Origin: a virus
Reading direction: 5' to 3' (one strand)
DNA length: 20,314 bases
Virus record (IMG/VR): IMGVR_UViG_3300028025_002051
Span: 1 to 20,314 of that record
Positions within the stretch are counted from its first letter, which is position 1, and each line of letters starts with the position of its first letter. The translations under genes and the position numbers were made by a program. The notes under the pieces were generated by a model. It was not told where the DNA came from, did no database searches, and saw nothing but the letters and a program-made list of their open reading frames with translations. Below are positions 1 to 16,517 of this stretch, piece by piece.

Positions 1-744
1 TGGCAGACAACCTTGCCATCAATGCGCTCTTTCTTCCTAGAGACAAGCGACCCACGCAATGCATCTACCTTCACTGAGAAGGTACAGAACAAGATGTCAA
101 CCATTGCCGCTAAGTTGGATACTCTTGGTATCTCAGCAATGTCAACTGACCCAAAGACTGGCAAGTTAATTGACAACTCAGAGTTCATCAAAGGTCTTGC
201 TATGCAGACCATCCAGAACAACTGGGATGATTCACAACTAGAAGATTTCCTTGCAACAAAGTCAACAGTTATGTTTACAGGTGGCGGAACCCTTGGTTCT
301 ACACTTGAGAAGGTTAAGAACCAGGCATACATGTATGGCATTAAGATTGATGCTGCCCTTGAAAAAGAAATTAACTTTTCACTTCTTGACCCTAACGATG
401 GCAGAGATGCTAACTACTGGCTCTACTCTGTTAAGCAGCAGGCAATGGATAGCCCAACATACAAACCGTTCGCTGAGTCTTTAAAGGCTGGGCGTAGCCT
501 ATATGAAGTAACTAATAACTACCGCCAACAGATGGCTAACTTGCTTGAGGTTGACTCAACAGCAATCACATGGGATGACCTCATGGGCAAAGTTGTTGAC
601 AACACAACTGGTAATGCCCGTACTTTTGCTGACTTCACTAAGCAAGTTAAGCAAGACAAACTATGGCAGTATACAAAAAATGCAAAGGAAACATACAGCA
701 ATATGGCTCTTGACCTTGCACGAACATTTGGGTTTAGCGGATAA
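1..744 (+). CDS. C-terminal part of a probable internal virion (ejection) protein, 5' end outside window
   Basis: The reading frame is open from the first base (W-Q-T-T precedes the TTG at 13), so this is the C-terminal 247 residues of a longer protein and not a complete gene. It is hydrophilic and helical with no signal peptide or membrane segment. The last 60 residues (WDDLMGKV, DFTKQVKQDKLWQYTKNA, then LARTFGF at the very C-terminus) resemble the conserved tail of large virion proteins I recall from actinobacteriophages, just before an Ala-rich partner as here. It ends in TAATG, sharing one base with the next gene, which implies translational coupling. Its place just before the scaffold and capsid genes, in a genome lacking a tape-measure gene, suggests a protein carried inside the head or ejected with DNA. 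That role is inference. Confidence 0.55.
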   Translation, partial: WQTTLPSMRSFFLETSDPRNASTFTEKVQNKMSTIAAKLDTLGISAMSTDPKTGKLIDNSEFIKGLAMQTIQNNWDDSQLEDFLATKSTVMFTGGGTLGSTLEKVKNQAYMYGIKIDAALEKEINFSLLDPNDGRDANYWLYSVKQQAMDSPTYKPFAESLKAGRSLYEVTNNYRQQMANLLEVDSTAITWDDLMGKVVDNTTGNARTFADFTKQVKQDKLWQYTKNAKETYSNMALDLARTFGFSG

Positions 745-2249
745 TGGCAATAGACGACTCAGACCGCAGACTCATGCAGCAAGCCCGTGATGCAGCAGCA
801 GCCAGGCGTGCAGAAACAGAACGCGAAAATGCTCGCGCTGCAGCAGCAGCGGCGGCAACAGCGGCGGCAACAACAGCATCCCGTGCTGCTCTTACAAAAT
901 TAACTTCTGGTGCAACGCTTACTAACGCAGAACGCGCTGCTCTTAACATGACTCCAGCACCACAGTCAAACTTTACTTATGGTGCAGGAAACCCTATGTC
1001 TGGTGTTACACCACCTACACCTACGCCTACAACATTTCCAGCAGCAGGAACTTTTGTTGGTTGGGATTATCAAGGTAATACCCAGACAACAGGAACCTTA
1101 AGGCGCAAGATTGTTGCCGATGGCAAGGGTGGAACTAAAGTTGACTTTGGTTCGGTTGAAAAGAATCCTGATTATGTTTCAGGAAGTCGTGGTGGTGGAA
1201 CGGGTACTGGTGGCAACACTGGCAGCGGAAACACTGGCAGTGGTAACCAAACCTTTACATGGACAGACCCAGATACTGGGCAAGTAAGAACATTTGCATC
1301 TGCAGCAGAACTAAACGCATTTGTTACAACTTGGTCTACAAAGAAGTCATCTGATTCATCCACTGCAGCAGCCGCTGCAGCAGCAAAGGCTAAGGCTGAT
1401 ATAGAGGCACAAGCAAAAAGAACTGCGCAACAGGACTTTAAAGCCGCTCTCACTGAAATGGGTCTTGCTGATTTAGCAGACACAGTTGATGAGATGATTC
1501 GCCAAGACTTTACTGCATCACAAATTAAACTTGAACTACCTAAGCAACCAGCATATAGATTGCGCTTTCCTGGTATGCAGGCTTTGCGAGATGCAGGTCA
1601 GGCTATCAATGAGGCTACATATATTTCAATGGAAAGAGGCTACCTTCAAACTTTAGGAGCCTTCGGTTTAGATGCTGGAGTATTTGGTACCCGCGCTGAA
1701 CTAGGTAAGTACATTGCTAATATGGTTTCGCCACGCGAATTTGAGGAGCGAGTAAATATCGCTAAGACTCGCGTTGCAGATAACTCAGATGTAGTTAAGC
1801 AACTCAAGGGTTATTACCCAGAGATTGACGACTCAGCCGTTGTTTCATATTTGCTCAATCCTACAAAGGGTATGGACATCATCAAGAAGCAGGTTCGTGC
1901 TGCTGAGATTGGTGCTGCTGCTACCTTCGCTGGGTTCTCTGACCTTGGCGGTAAGGGTGCAATGGGTACAGGTTATGCCGAGTCACTCATCGGAGCCACT
2001 GGTACTGCAGATTTGGCAGCGCTTAAGAAAGACTTTGGGCAGGCTAAGACACTTGCTCGTACACAGTCACGCCTTGCAGGTATTGAAAGCCAGGCTTACA
2101 ACGAAACAGAAGCAGTCAATGCAGCCATCGCTCAAGAGCAGGCTTCAATCCTTGCTTCACAACGCAGAGCCGAAAGAGAAACGAAGTTCCGTTTCGGTGG
2201 CACAAGCGGCGTTGGTGCTACTTCACTAAGAAGCACTACAAACCAATAA
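744..2249 (+). CDS. Ala/Gly-rich probable internal virion protein, partner of the upstream gene
   Basis: 501 residues starting at the ATG that overlaps the upstream stop (TAATG). Residues 1-50 form an Ala/Arg-rich helix with an eight-Ala run. Residues 65-190 are low-complexity Pro/Thr and Gly/Ser/Thr linker (GTGTGGNTGSGNTGSGN). A second Ala/Lys helix lies near 205-230. The C-terminal 270 residues form a helical domain (PAYRLRFPGMQALRDAG, SMERGYLQTLGAFGL, MVSPREFEERV, SYLLNPTKGMDIIKKQ) ending in GATSLRSTTNQ. I recall the 'RFPGM...EAxYxxxER...VSPxEfxxRV' pattern from actinophage virion proteins, but know no function for it. Position before the scaffold suggests an internal or ejected protein. 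There is no transmembrane segment and no visible enzymatic motif. Confidence 0.6.
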   Translation: MAIDDSDRRLMQQARDAAAARRAETERENARAAAAAAATAAATTASRAALTKLTSGATLTNAERAALNMTPAPQSNFTYGAGNPMSGVTPPTPTPTTFPAAGTFVGWDYQGNTQTTGTLRRKIVADGKGGTKVDFGSVEKNPDYVSGSRGGGTGTGGNTGSGNTGSGNQTFTWTDPDTGQVRTFASAAELNAFVTTWSTKKSSDSSTAAAAAAAKAKADIEAQAKRTAQQDFKAALTEMGLADLADTVDEMIRQDFTASQIKLELPKQPAYRLRFPGMQALRDAGQAINEATYISMERGYLQTLGAFGLDAGVFGTRAELGKYIANMVSPREFEERVNIAKTRVADNSDVVKQLKGYYPEIDDSAVVSYLLNPTKGMDIIKKQVRAAEIGAAATFAGFSDLGGKGAMGTGYAESLIGATGTADLAALKKDFGQAKTLARTQSRLAGIESQAYNETEAVNAAIAQEQASILASQRRAERETKFRFGGTSGVGATSLRSTTNQ

Positions 2250-2257
2250 ATAGAATC

Positions 2258-2349
2258 CTGAACGGACCCACCAGCCCCGTCAGCGTAACAGTCTGGTAGC
2301 GATAGCCGACATGGTTTCCCCGAACCGTGTTTGTGGATTGCGAATACAA
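2258..2349 (+). promoter_or_regulatory. Structured leader: tandem stem-loops before the scaffold-capsid genes
   Basis: The 120-base gap between the Ala-rich virion gene and the scaffold gene folds by eye into consecutive hairpins. P1: 2258-2265 with 2277-2283 (CTGaACGG / CCGTCAG, one bulged A, 11-base loop). P2: 2291-2298 with 2303-2310 (GTCtGGTA / TAgCCGAC) closing a GCGA tetraloop of the GNRA class. P3: 2310-2316 with 2323-2329 (CATGGTT / AACCGTG, one G-U, loop TCCCCG). A weaker P4 is 2331-2334 with 2346-2349 plus ATT/AAT. The scaffold ribosome-binding site (GGGAG) follows about ten bases after P4. Coding genes here usually overlap or sit within about 35 bases of each other, so a gap this long and this structured stands out. 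It could be a 5' UTR control element, an RNase processing site or a small RNA. I recognise no named family. Confidence 0.45.
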
Positions 2350-2369
2350 CTAACAAGGGAGATAGGTAG

Positions 2370-2819
2370 ATGGCTACCAATTACGAATACGATGACGAAG
2401 ATGACTTCACCGAAGAAGGTGGAGATGTCGTTAAGCAACTACGCAAGGTAAACCGTACGCTCGAAAAGCGTTTAAAGGAACTTGAGGCAGAGGCTAACAC
2501 TCTGAAAATTCAGACTCGTCAGCGTACAGTCAAGGATGTACTTACAGCAAAGGGTATCAACCCAAAAATCGCAGCGTTTATCCCACAAGATATTGAGGGA
2601 GAAGAAGCAATCTCAGGATGGCTTAACGAATACGGCGATGTCTTTGGAGTTACCCAGCCAGAAGAAGCAAAACAAGACAGCGAAGATGTATCTGCTGCAA
2701 AACGAATCGCCAACACAGTCAACAGCGCAGCAGCGCCAACGATTGATGAAGATGCATTAGCAAAGATTCTATCCGCAGAAGGTCCCGCTGCTTTGAACGC
2801 CATCCTTGGAATCAATTAA
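2370..2819 (+). CDS. Head scaffolding protein
   Basis: 149 residues, acidic and helical. It begins with a very acidic stretch (YEYDDEDDFTEEGGD), followed by a coiled-coil segment around residues 20-55 (VVKQLRKVNRTLEKRLKELEAEANTL in heptad-like pattern). The middle holds GINPKIAAFIPQDI and EEAISGWLNEYGDVFGV, and the C-terminus is an Ala-rich helix. Small acidic coiled-coil proteins placed directly before the major capsid gene are the usual form of tailed-phage scaffolds, which hold the capsid subunits during procapsid assembly and then leave or are degraded. No protease gene is visible in the window. The ATG follows GGGAG and AGG elements about 5-15 bases upstream. The identification rests on composition and position. 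Confidence 0.75.
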   Translation: MATNYEYDDEDDFTEEGGDVVKQLRKVNRTLEKRLKELEAEANTLKIQTRQRTVKDVLTAKGINPKIAAFIPQDIEGEEAISGWLNEYGDVFGVTQPEEAKQDSEDVSAAKRIANTVNSAAAPTIDEDALAKILSAEGPAALNAILGIN

Positions 2820-2855: not shown

Positions 2856-4031
2856 ATGGCATATACAGACACAACTGCGGTTGCTGGTCTTATCAAGACA
2901 GCGTATGACCGCTATGTTGAGTTCGCTCTGCGCAGCCAGCCAATGATTCGTTCAGTGGCAGACAAGCGCCCAGCACAGCAAGCCATGCCAGGTTCAACCG
3001 TTGTATTCTCACTTTACAACGACTTGGCTGCTGCTACTTCAACACTCGGCGAGACAACAGATGTCACAGCCGTAGCACTACCAGATGTATCAACCGTTTC
3101 TGTCACACTAGAAGAAAAGGGTAACGGCGCACTTGTTACACGCAAGTTGCAGTTGTTCTCACTTTCAGATGTTGACCCAGCAGTTGCAGACATCATTGCT
3201 TACAACATGGCAGATTCTATTGACCAGATTGCAATGTCAGCACTTAACGGCGGAACTTATGTTCAGTACGCAGGTGCAACAGCAACATCAACAGCAACTG
3301 TCACAGCGGCAGCAGCAGTTGATTCTGCAGACATCCGCAAGATTGTTGCAAAGTTGCGTTCACGCAAGGCTGTTCCACGCGAGGGTAACCTCTACTGGAC
3401 AGGTATCCACCCAGAAGTTTCACACGACCTTCGTGCTGAGACTGGCAATGTGGGCTGGCGCGATGTTCACTCACTCACAGATTCAGGTCAGGGTAACCTC
3501 TGGGCTGGAACTATCGGAACATACGAAGGTGCTTTCTTTGTTGAAACAAACCGTATGTTCTCTGCTAAGTCAGGCGCAGACCAGACAGCACTCGCAACAA
3601 CAGCAGTTACAGTAGCAGGAACATCAGCAGGATTCACACTCGGCGTTGCTTCATCTTCTGTTATTGCATCACGCGCTGAAGTTGGCGATAAGATTTCAGG
3701 AACAGGCATCGCTTCTGGTGCAAAGATTTCTGCTATCGCAACATCAGGTTCTACAACAACAATCACTGTTAACACAGCACACTCTGCTGCAGTAACAGTT
3801 TCAACTGTTGTTACAGTAACTCCAGTAACCCGCGTATTCAGCACAATCGTTGCTGGAAAGCAGGCACTTGCAGAGGCTGTAGCAGTCGAGCCAAATGTTG
3901 TTATCGGACCAGTCACCGATTCACTCATGCGTTTCCGACCAATCGGTTGGTACGGCGTACTTGGATTTGCTCGCTACCGCGAAGAATCCCTATACCGCAT
4001 TGAATCAGGTTCTTCAATCGCAGCATTGTAG
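2856..4031 (+). CDS. Major capsid protein, N4-gp56-like (HK97 fold), with an inserted beta domain
   Basis: 391 residues. The body resembles the N4-gp56 major capsid family: TAYDRYVEFALRSQPMIRSVADK at 16-37, then GSTVVFSLYNDL, LGETTDV and VSVTLEEKGNGALVTRKL, followed by DPAVADIIAYNMADSIDQIAMSALNGG near 107-133. The family C-terminal element (TRVFSTIVAGKQALAEAV, then RPIGWYGVLGFARYREESLYRIE) follows. Between residue 240 and about 323 sits a Thr/Ser/Val-rich segment with VGDKISGTGIASGAKISAIA and TTTITVNTA, a pattern typical of small beta domains in phage surface proteins, which interrupts the capsid core. It probably projects from the shell as a built-in decoration. The gene has the strongest ribosome-binding site of the window and is followed by a very stable hairpin. 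Capsid role near certain; exact family likely. Confidence 0.88.
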   Translation: MAYTDTTAVAGLIKTAYDRYVEFALRSQPMIRSVADKRPAQQAMPGSTVVFSLYNDLAAATSTLGETTDVTAVALPDVSTVSVTLEEKGNGALVTRKLQLFSLSDVDPAVADIIAYNMADSIDQIAMSALNGGTYVQYAGATATSTATVTAAAAVDSADIRKIVAKLRSRKAVPREGNLYWTGIHPEVSHDLRAETGNVGWRDVHSLTDSGQGNLWAGTIGTYEGAFFVETNRMFSAKSGADQTALATTAVTVAGTSAGFTLGVASSSVIASRAEVGDKISGTGIASGAKISAIATSGSTTTITVNTAHSAAVTVSTVVTVTPVTRVFSTIVAGKQALAEAVAVEPNVVIGPVTDSLMRFRPIGWYGVLGFARYREESLYRIESGSSIAAL

Positions 4032-4891: not shown

Positions 4892-5023
4892 ATGCCAATG
4901 GTAAACGGAAAGAAATTTTCATACGACAAAGCAGGAAAGATGGCAGCCATGAAGGAAGCCAAGAAGTCAGGCAAGCCAGTAAAGAAGGCTGCTAAGAAGG
5001 CTCCAGCAAAGAAGATGAAGTAA
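4892..5023 (+). CDS. Lys-rich micro-protein (43 aa)
   Basis: 43 residues beginning MPMVNGKKFSYDKAGKMAA, with AAGGAG at 4880-4885 about six bases before the ATG. Fifteen of 43 residues are lysine, including PVKKAAKKAPAKK at the C-terminus, which is histone-tail-like. The stop overlaps the next ATG (TAATG). No cysteine or hydrophobic core. The strong ribosome-binding site and conserved-looking operon spacing support it as real. A DNA-binding or condensing head component is a reasonable guess, nothing more. Confidence 0.55.
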   Translation: MPMVNGKKFSYDKAGKMAAMKEAKKSGKPVKKAAKKAPAKKMK

Positions 5024-5157
5024 TGTGTAAAGAGTGCAACTGCTATGGAGCAAAGCATCCATACGGCATCGGCGGTAGCGCCGTAAACAAGCCAGCAAAC
5101 GCATCAGTACCTCCAACAAAGAAAATGGAGATGGAGTCAGAAGATGAAGATGACTAA
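5023..5157 (+). CDS. Cys-cluster micro-protein with acidic tail (44 aa)
   Basis: 44 residues: MCKECNCYGAKHPYGIGG, then a Pro/Ala/Asn linker, then MEMESEDEDD. Cys2, Cys5, Cys7 and His12 form a CxxCxC...H group that could bind zinc. The acidic tail mirrors that of the gene at 4623-4871. The start overlaps the upstream stop by one base and the 3' end overlaps the next gene by 14 bases in another frame, so three consecutive tiny genes look translationally coupled. Function unknown. Confidence 0.5.
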   Translation: MCKECNCYGAKHPYGIGGSAVNKPANASVPPTKKMEMESEDEDD

Positions 5158-5302
5158 GAAGGCTGCAAAGGTCAAGAAAGTTATGGGCGAATACAAGCGT
5201 GGAACCCTTCACTCAGGTAAAGGTGGACCCGTTGTTAAGTCAAAGAAGCAAGCAGTTGCTATCGCAATGAGCGAAGCAAAGATGGCAAAGAAGAAGAAAT
5301 AA
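5144..5302 (+). CDS. DUF6496-like Lys-rich protein (52 aa)
   Basis: 52 residues: MKMTKKAAKVKKVMGEYKRG, then TLHSGKGGPVVKSKKQAVAIAMSEA, then a KMAKKKK tail. The core VMGEYKRGTLHSGK...VKSKKQAVAIAMSEA matches the pattern I know for DUF6496, a short family with the signature KVMxEfkxGkLhSGs...VkxrkQAIAIAlSEA, common in bacteria and phages. Sixteen of 52 residues are lysine. The ATG lies within the upstream gene and the stop overlaps the next ATG (TAATG). Function unknown; the QAxAIAxSEA helix with basic flanks suggests nucleic-acid contact. Confidence 0.65.
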   Translation: MKMTKKAAKVKKVMGEYKRGTLHSGKGGPVVKSKKQAVAIAMSEAKMAKKKK

Positions 5303-5559: not shown

Positions 5560-5717
5560 TGAAGAAGAAAGCATTTTGGGATAAGAAGAATCCAAACAAG
5601 AAGTCAACTCCTTTAACGCCAGCCCAAAAAAGCAAGGCTAAGGCAATGGCAAAGAAGGCTGGGCGACCATACCCAAACCTAGTAGACAACGCAGCAGCAA
5701 AGCGAAAGGCTAAGTAA
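5559..5717 (+). CDS. Lys-rich micro-protein with AGRPYPNLVDN motif (52 aa)
   Basis: 52 residues: MKKKAFWDKKNPNKKSTPL, then TPAQKSKAKAMAKKAGRPYP, then NLVDNAAAKRKAK. Fifteen lysines. The AKKAGRPYPNLVDN element is one I recall from short phage proteins of unknown role near head genes. Start and stop both overlap the neighbours (TAATG at each end), so it is embedded in the coupled series 4892-5983. It is probably a DNA-contacting head component by charge, which is inference. Confidence 0.6.
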   Translation: MKKKAFWDKKNPNKKSTPLTPAQKSKAKAMAKKAGRPYPNLVDNAAAKRKAK

Positions 5718-11017: not shown

Positions 11018-11027
11018 TGATTACACC

Positions 11028-11060
11028 TGAGCATGTGTTTAAACGGCTCATTATTTTTTT
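11028..11060 (+). terminator. Possible weak intrinsic terminator
   Basis: TGAGC (11028-11032) pairs with GCTCA (11046-11050) across a 13-base loop that itself contains the palindrome GTTTAAAC, followed at once by TTATTTTTTT. The stem is only five base pairs, so termination would be partial. It sits right after the AT-rich gene. Confidence 0.35.
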
Positions 11061-11069
11061 GGAGTAACT

Positions 11070-11156
11070 ATGCCTAGAAACGAAGGCACTTGCACATCAG
11101 AGCCTACTCGCACCATTGACGATGCGATAGACGAAGCAGAACTTTTACCATACTAA
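11070..11156 (+). CDS. Micro-ORF of 28 codons between tail genes
   Basis: Reads MPRNEGTCTSEPTR then TIDDAIDEAELLPY. GGAG at 11061-11064 lies five bases before the ATG, and the stop TAA merges with the AAGGAG of the next gene, so spacing looks like a real coupled gene. It is short, acidic and has no recognised homologue. It may be a leader peptide or a relic that keeps ribosomes running to the next start. Confidence 0.35.
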   Translation: MPRNEGTCTSEPTRTIDDAIDEAELLPY

Positions 11157-11165
11157 GGAGCAATA

Positions 11166-14888: not shown

Positions 14889-15058
14889 AAAAGATAATGA
14901 AAGATATGGTTGAACAACTGTGGACTCTACTAGGCATGTTCATTGCCTGGGTTGTCCTTGATGGTTCAGCCAAGACAGTAGTTGGTTATGCCATTGCAGG
15001 CACGCTTATTGCTTGGGCAATTACTTATCCGCTACGCAACCCAAAGGATGATGAATAA
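14885..15058 (+). CDS. Small two-helix membrane protein (holin candidate)
   Basis: 57 residues: MKKIMKDMVEQLWTLLGMFI, AWVVLDGSAKTVVGYAIAGT, LIAWAITYPLRNPKDDE. Two hydrophobic segments (about 12-26 and 31-50) with a short Asp/Ser/Lys turn, a basic N-terminus and a charged C-terminus, all features of small class II holins. The ATG overlaps the upstream TGA (ATGA), and the TAA overlaps the next ATG (TAATG), so it is translationally locked to both neighbours. Confidence 0.6.
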   Translation: MKKIMKDMVEQLWTLLGMFIAWVVLDGSAKTVVGYAIAGTLIAWAITYPLRNPKDDE

Positions 15059-16114: not shown

Positions 16115-16291
16115 TTATCCCCCAGTTTTATAGAAGCCTGGACCTTTGAACTGAATCGCAGGAGGTGTATACACACGCTTCATATCTGCCCCGCACAATG
16201 TACACGGTGGAACTGTATCACTTTCCGTGATAGCAAGTAGCAACTCTTGCACAATGTTGCAAGCGTTACATTGAAAATCATACTTGGGCAT
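16115..16291 (-). CDS. FmdB-type zinc-ribbon protein
   Basis: 58 residues starting MPKYDFQCNACNIVQELLLA. Cys8/Cys11 and Cys30/Cys33 form two CxxC knuckles of a zinc ribbon. The C-terminus IQFKGPGFYKTGG is the FmdB-family signature (FKGSGFYxTD). FmdB-like domains are small putative regulatory or nucleic-acid-binding proteins common in actinobacteria. I chose the ATG at 16291 over the upstream in-frame ATG at 16300, because GAGG of a ribosome site lies between them at proper spacing and family members start MPxYxYxC. It overlaps the upstream minus-strand gene by 14 bases and runs toward the bidirectional terminator. Confidence 0.8.
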   Translation of the reverse strand: MPKYDFQCNACNIVQELLLAITESDTVPPCTLCGADMKRVYTPPAIQFKGPGFYKTGG

Positions 16292-16517
16292 AGTCCTCAT
16301 CCGCTGGGCAGGGTACTGTTACAAGCGCCCCACATAGGGCGCACTCCGCATCCGTGAACCAGAGCGAAATCTCTTTATCTTCAAACATGCATCTAACTAA
16401 AAACAGTGTGCTTCCGCAAAGACACGCATGTGTTGGTGTGCCACGCAGGTCTAAGGACCTGCTACGCTGTGGCTTCCATCGCTTGCGTAGTCGGTAGAGT
16501 ATTCCCTTGTTCTGCAC
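16278..16517 (-). CDS. Small Cys-rich probable zinc-binding protein
   Basis: 79 residues from GTG at 16517. A basic N-terminus (LYRLRKRWKPQRSRSLDLRG) precedes ACLCGSTLFLVRCMFEDKEI and ECALCGALVTVPCPADED. Cys32/Cys34 and Cys59/Cys62 can form a CxC...CxxC zinc site, with Cys43 and Cys70 extra. 'CLCGS...f.d.ei.lwf.da.CalCG...tvP.P.de' resembles small actinophage proteins of unknown role. There is no clear ribosome site before the GTG, but a TACACT box sits seven bases upstream, so the mRNA may be leaderless, as is common in actinobacteria. It shares its 3' end with the FmdB-like gene. Likely a DNA/RNA-contacting accessory or regulator. Confidence 0.6.
   Translation of the reverse strand: MQNKGILYRLRKRWKPQRSRSLDLRGTPTHACLCGSTLFLVRCMFEDKEISLWFTDAECALCGALVTVPCPADEDYAQV

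Follow-up and report, generated by a model that had tools for sequence, protein, structure and literature searches.

We found a conserved structured RNA of about 110-130 nt directly 5′ of the scaffold gene in four groups of phages, at every locus that extends far enough upstream. The element has a secondary structure with a pseudoknot, a fixed position and a single copy per genome, and it is present in cultured Streptomyces phages as well as in hundreds of contigs of aquatic viruses. It is a new RNA family of a known kind of architecture, and it probably acts in cis as a leader that controls translation of the scaffold gene and possibly of the capsid gene too.

The DNA analysed here, hereafter the window, comprises 20,314 nt of the IMG/VR virus record IMGVR_UViG_3300028025_002051. 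A gap of 120 nt (2250-2369) precedes the ORF in the scaffold position (2370-2819), and the capsid gene starts 36 nt beyond the scaffold gene (Table 1). The initial annotation had singled out this gap ahead of the scaffold and capsid genes; it is real and keeps a similar length in the relatives that reach upstream, but its description as the only sizeable non-coding gap was inexact, as counting ORFs of at least 60 aa leaves others of about 150-170 nt at 5560-5716, 11018-11165 and 14889-15057.

Several other features of the window deserve mention. The capsid protein (2856-4031) aligns with the Streptomyces phage capsids in two pieces, with 74% covered, and the extra stretch, rich in T, S, V and A, resembles an inserted surface domain. 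Between the head and tail genes (4892-5302) lie three short overlapping ORFs of 43-52 aa, possibly small DNA-binding or virion proteins; lysine is very abundant in two of them (KKAAKKAPAKK; KKAAKVKKV). At 16115-16517, two minus-strand ORFs with CxxC pairs interrupt an otherwise plus-strand region, and one of them looks by eye like a small zinc-ribbon regulator (FmdB-like).

To define the family, IMG/VR was searched with the scaffold protein (128 related stretches, 80 kept) and with the upstream gene (23 related stretches), and a strict RNA pattern search gave at least 119 matches. The window-like loci are called group 1. A second large group (group 2) was reached through a scaffold protein of 38% identity, and the best 80 of its 423 relatives were kept. 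The cultured Streptomyces podoviruses came from a search with the capsid protein; the element is found in Immanuel3, Manuel, FlowerPower and Abafar, among others, and Abafar has the shape of a podovirus (PMC11536984). A fourth group (group 4), around Caudovirales sp. ct2KA10, is represented by the best 80 of 591 capsid relatives. Groups 1, 2 and 4 are aquatic.

Wherever tested, in representatives of all four groups, the downstream gene is phrog_7813. In most relatives the element begins a few nucleotides past the upstream stop codon. Among the annotated Streptomyces loci examined (L304 66-1856, L306, L307 and others), a long tRNA array ends 2-3 nt before the element. The annotation of Streptomyces phage JXY1 splits the capsid gene (L308, 2025-2893) into two neighbouring genes for a major head protein, likely a frameshift or sequencing error.

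Two coding explanations were rejected. The length of the gap is not fixed (116-126 nt in the first set of relatives), there is no conserved frame, and the window frame has an early stop. Pseudoknot-driven stop-codon readthrough or frameshifting, considered for the spacing just past the upstream stop codon, is rejected on the basis of frames that differ between relatives and of the Streptomyces phages, in which the upstream neighbour is a tRNA array and no protein gene.

All groups share a common architecture. It opens with an H-type pseudoknot, in which P2 (4-5 bp) arises from pairing between the P1 loop and a strand 3′ of P1; P1 itself has 7-9 bp, often with one bulge, and the third pseudoknot loop is purine-rich. 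P4 (5 bp) follows and carries, beyond a conserved AGC/GG internal loop, the hairpin P3 with a C-rich loop that is near-invariant among relatives. In the window, the pseudoknot ends 74 nt 5′ of the scaffold start codon.

Table 1. Features of the leader and its neighbouring genes in the window
Feature	Position	Strand	Remarks
Upstream ORF, 501 aa, phrog_8424 (function unknown)	744-2249	+	stop codon 8 nt 5′ of P1
RNA element, extent according to covariance model R1	2256-2344	+	60 bits, E 4.9e-11; window sequence among the 55 on which R1 was trained
P1 5′ strand, CUGA-(A2262 bulge)-CGG	2258-2265	+	partner 2277-2283; covariation in all four groups
P2 (pseudoknot) 5′ strand, CCAG, within P1 loop	2271-2274	+	partner 2293-2296
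P1 3′ strand, CCGUCAG	2277-2283	+	
L3, purine/A-rich pseudoknot loop	2284-2292	+	relatives typically end AAGA/AAGU
P2 (pseudoknot) 3′ strand, CUGG	2293-2296	+	
P4 5′ strand, GCGAU (supposed GNRA tetraloop)	2299-2303	+	pairs with 2337-2341
Conserved AGCC	2304-2307	+	faces GG 2335-2336: asymmetric internal loop plus CC/GG; near-invariant in A5
P3 hairpin, 2308-2316 with 2323-2331, loop UCCCCG 2317-2322	2308-2331	+	stem covaries
P4 3′ strand, AUUGC	2337-2341	+	
Shine-Dalgarno-like GGGAG	2357-2361	+	complementary to P3 loop
P5 start-codon hairpin, GGUAG-AUGG-CUACC	2365-2378	+	5 bp
Scaffold gene, 149 aa, phrog_7813	2370-2819	+	homologues in phages Dennebes and JPandJE annotated 'scaffolding protein'
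Major capsid protein gene	2856-4031	+	phrog_1357 / PF13252

The evidence for this fold is comparative. Folding the window sequence alone gives no signal (minimum free energy of -27.1 kcal/mol versus -27.9 +/- 3.5 kcal/mol for shuffles, z 0.21), and the three clean hairpins plus a weaker fourth of the initial annotation give way to the fold that covaries, a pseudoknot followed by P4/P3. Its hairpin capped by a GCGA (GNRA) tetraloop is likewise abandoned: both GCGA stretches fall in strands of P4, which is paired in all 198 genomes, the first (2299-2302) within the 5′ strand and the second (2340-2343) made up of the end of the 3′ strand and two unpaired bases. Its more general claim, that the gap folds as a structured RNA, is borne out by a parser for the full architecture, which accepts 153 of the 158 unique sequences and none of 474 dinucleotide shuffles.

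In the four group alignments, pairing reaches 93.8% (n=75), 99.0% (n=65), 99.3% (n=18) and 94.4% (n=43) and drops to 22-50% when the partners are slid by 1-3 columns. Two-sided changes number 181, 228, 71 and 127 against shuffled means of 56, 58, 16 and 40, a 3-4-fold excess, with two of the structures including P5 (group 4) or the P3 loop pairing with the Shine-Dalgarno sequence (SD; Streptomyces phages), weaker parts that add mainly invariant pairs. These shuffles ignore relatedness; pair states were therefore also mapped by parsimony on a tree of the scaffold protein, which is independent of the RNA. By this count, approximate in that it uses a single parsimony reconstruction, P2 underwent about 26 two-sided compensatory changes with 0 unpaired cells in 198 genomes, and its first three pairs changed 7, 8 and 11 times, always on both sides and with the pair preserved. 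P4 underwent 54 two-sided changes, again with none unpaired in the 198 genomes; all five of its pairs vary, four of them with double changes.

The versions of P2 illustrate this variation. The window has CCAG/CUGG, L041 CUAG/CUAG and L235 CCGG/CCGG; group 2 has CUGG/CCAG, and many members of group 4 have UCGG/CCGA. UCAG/CUGA also occurs among relatives, and the Streptomyces phages carry GUCAG/CUGAC or GCUGG/CCAGC. The P2 pseudoknot is therefore supported to the extent that comparative data allow. The initial annotation had named beforehand two outcomes that would speak against a conserved RNA, unrelated sequence in homologous gaps and stem changes without compensation; both were examined and neither was found.

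The element is confined to one place. Of 71 group 4 loci, all absent from the training set of R1 (which did include one relative, L305), the model matches 69, and the two missed loci, L346 and L411, start too near the capsid gene to include the element. All 44 of the 44 whole phage records of this kind hold one copy at the expected place in a covariance-model search, and the sole second match anywhere, in one record, is at chance level (16 bits, E 0.08). In all examined loci reaching far enough upstream, the element lies on the sense strand before the scaffold SD and start. A covariance-model search of Bacillus phage Pascal, which has a distant capsid, found the element absent, and neither the strict group 1 motif pattern in bacterial genomes nor the capsid protein in genome contigs gave a match.

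Database searches agree with the initial annotation, which had recognised no published family. The window matches no family in Rfam 15 at the gathering threshold and none down to E 5, and a tRNA search likewise found none. Against Rfam 15, the loci L099, L304, L305, L306, L335 and L257 match tRNAs only, and the elements of L304 and L405 have only chance-level matches in Rfam (E at least 0.7). The element is unreported in the literature searched, a scope that excludes the Weinberg 2017 survey of 224 candidate RNAs.

A strong fold in one copy per genome, adjoining the head genes and, in Streptomyces phages, the tRNA array, could also suit an RNA that is freed from the late transcript to act in trans or as a structural component. 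Such an RNA might serve in packaging like phi29 pRNA, likewise a structured phage RNA of about 120 nt tied to head assembly. However, pRNA is an independent transcript, whereas the element has no Rfam match, is always fused in cis to the scaffold SD and is followed, by eye, by no terminator-like T run after its stems. We judge this the least probable of the readings considered, and the separate small RNA suggested by the initial annotation is made less likely by the single copy, the fixed cis position and the direct continuity with the SD.

Next to the fold, the initiation region itself is conserved. The SD differs among groups (GGGAG, GGGUGG or UAGGAG), and an SD-like GGGAG/AGGAG is near-invariant inside groups. 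Complementarity between the P3 loop and the SD is present in all groups and exceeds that with shuffled ribosome-binding sites in every one (at the window site, a cognate duplex of -6.9 vs -4.5 kcal/mol shuffled). When loops and SDs are swapped, aquatic P3 loops pair poorly with the Streptomyces SD. The loop:SD contact is compatible with the data, with no clean covariation, and we regard it as suggestive; we leave it unproven because the Streptomyces loop forms good pairs with the aquatic SDs too.

A small hairpin encloses the start codon in the aquatic groups, and its sequence changes from group to group (GGUAG-AUGG-CUACC in the window, UGGCU-AAUG-AGCCA, GGAC-n-UAU-GUCC and GUUGCU-AUG-AGCAAC). 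The last of these, found in group 4 (L338-L417, e.g. L338), pairs perfectly over 6 bp, has the start codon for a 3-nt loop and is invariant across 43 distinct sequences. The hairpin forms with 5 bp in 48 of 48 unique sequence windows of group 1, compared to about 6% of shuffles, and in 17 of 17 of group 4 (about 4% of shuffles). For group 2, the figure of 23 out of 24 with at least 4 bp is little above chance, as about 38% of shuffles reach it, and the Streptomyces phages lack a start-codon hairpin. Conservation extends into the gene: in all four groups, same-amino-acid codons are more often identical at positions 2-10 than in the rest of the scaffold gene (0.75/0.59, 0.91/0.66, 0.99/0.55 and 0.86/0.73). 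Start-codon hairpin and loop:SD complementarity are thus supported, but more weakly than the fold upstream. Through the inverted repeat I1, 2294-2303 could also pair with 2370-2379 at the start and act as a switch; this alternative is not supported, as the variants GGGAGC, GGCAGC and GGAAGC break it without compensation.

We consider a leader for translational control the best explanation because of the exclusive cis position, the contact with the initiation region and the pseudoknot 74 nt upstream. Covariation and exclusive position likewise support the structured leader for the scaffold-to-capsid region that the initial annotation had proposed. The nascent RNA would form the H-type pseudoknot P1/P2 and, 3′ of it, the P4/P3 stem-loop with a C-rich loop complementary to the SD. 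The small hairpin of the aquatic phages would additionally hold the start codon in its loop or stem. Such a fold would limit ribosome access to the scaffold start and could be tuned by a pseudoknot-binding factor, for which free scaffold (or capsid) protein is the most plausible candidate. Scaffold synthesis would then fall when procapsid assembly does not consume the scaffold.

Both the repression of translation and the identity of the regulator, scaffold or capsid protein, are what we infer from this arrangement. The full version, in which the leader is the receptor of virion-assembly feedback and free scaffold or capsid protein binds the pseudoknot to stop scaffold translation through the P3 loop and the start hairpin, is tentative and in our view rather doubtful. 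A Pfam search with the scaffold protein returned no match, and the protein has no recognised RNA-binding domain, which counts against it as the regulator. Translational control in general has against it that the start hairpin is absent in Streptomyces phages and near chance in group 2, and that an enhancer or a stabiliser would yield equal conservation.

An enhancer of translation, with a fold that keeps the ribosome-binding site clear or recruits ribosomes without repression, would fit the bulk requirement for scaffold and capsid late in infection and the near-invariant SD. Nonetheless, an aquatic start codon within a hairpin suggests gating, not opening, and we find an enhancer improbable. 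Slightly more improbable still is a riboswitch, in which the pseudoknot would be stabilised by a small metabolite that thereby gates translation of the scaffold gene: an H-type pseudoknot whose loops are conserved is typical of riboswitch aptamers, and AGCC/GG and the C-rich loop are near-invariant, but the controlled gene is structural with no metabolic link, the element is found with no other gene, and no Rfam riboswitch matches.

The main rival to translational control is a stability or processing element at the mRNA 5′ end. The transcript would be cut just upstream, and the pseudoknot would block a 5′-to-3′ exonuclease such as RNase J or mark a processing site. Compact pseudoknots block exonucleases in plant and flaviviral RNA. 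The start of the element just past the upstream stop codon in most relatives is consistent with such a role, and so is its place directly after the last tRNA in Streptomyces phages: since the array ends 2-3 nt upstream, tRNA 3′ processing would set the extreme 5′ end of the scaffold-capsid mRNA at P1. Protection of an end leaves the conservation into the SD, start codon and first codons unexplained, and we hold this role to be unlikely.

Translational control by a leader has several precedents. In phage P22, unassembled scaffolding protein controls scaffold synthesis post-transcriptionally, the same autoregulatory logic as proposed here, with protein families not demonstrably related. We know of no pseudoknot leader of such kind in P22, and of no such leader previously described at a scaffold gene. 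The MS2/R17 operator also places a start codon in a small hairpin next to the SD, a likeness limited to the aquatic groups; the hairpin here has no known coat-protein binding, differs in sequence per group, is missing in Streptomyces phages and is preceded by a pseudoknot. A pseudoknot also forms part of the translational operator through which E. coli rpsO (S15) acts on its own gene (PMC3014915), a cellular gene with a different architecture.

The closest comparison is gene 32 of T4, whose product gp32 binds a pseudoknot 67 nt upstream of its own start codon and represses its own translation (PMC3014915). Like the element, the gene 32 leaders of T4, T2 and RB69 have an H-type pseudoknot, placed about 70 nt ahead of the start codon for an abundant phage protein (PMC3014915). 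The gene here encodes a scaffold (phrog_7813) and not a single-stranded DNA-binding protein, the A+U-rich UUAA(A) repeats are absent, with window 2297-2369 holding the P4/P3 stem-loop, the fold is larger by that stem-loop and the start hairpin, and sequence and phages are unrelated. We propose that the element would work like the gene 32 leader without being a member of that type, because it precedes another gene and lacks the A+U-rich repeats.

With the element, phage biology gains a widespread RNA family that Rfam lacks, placed at the scaffold/capsid step, at which output must match assembly. A leader that did act as feedback receptor would be, to our knowledge, the first pseudoknot operator of a viral structural protein, with conservation spanning aquatic phages and Streptomyces podoviruses. 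The presence of the element in the culturable Streptomyces phages Manuel, Abafar, Immanuel3 and FlowerPower makes the mechanism directly testable with laboratory strains.
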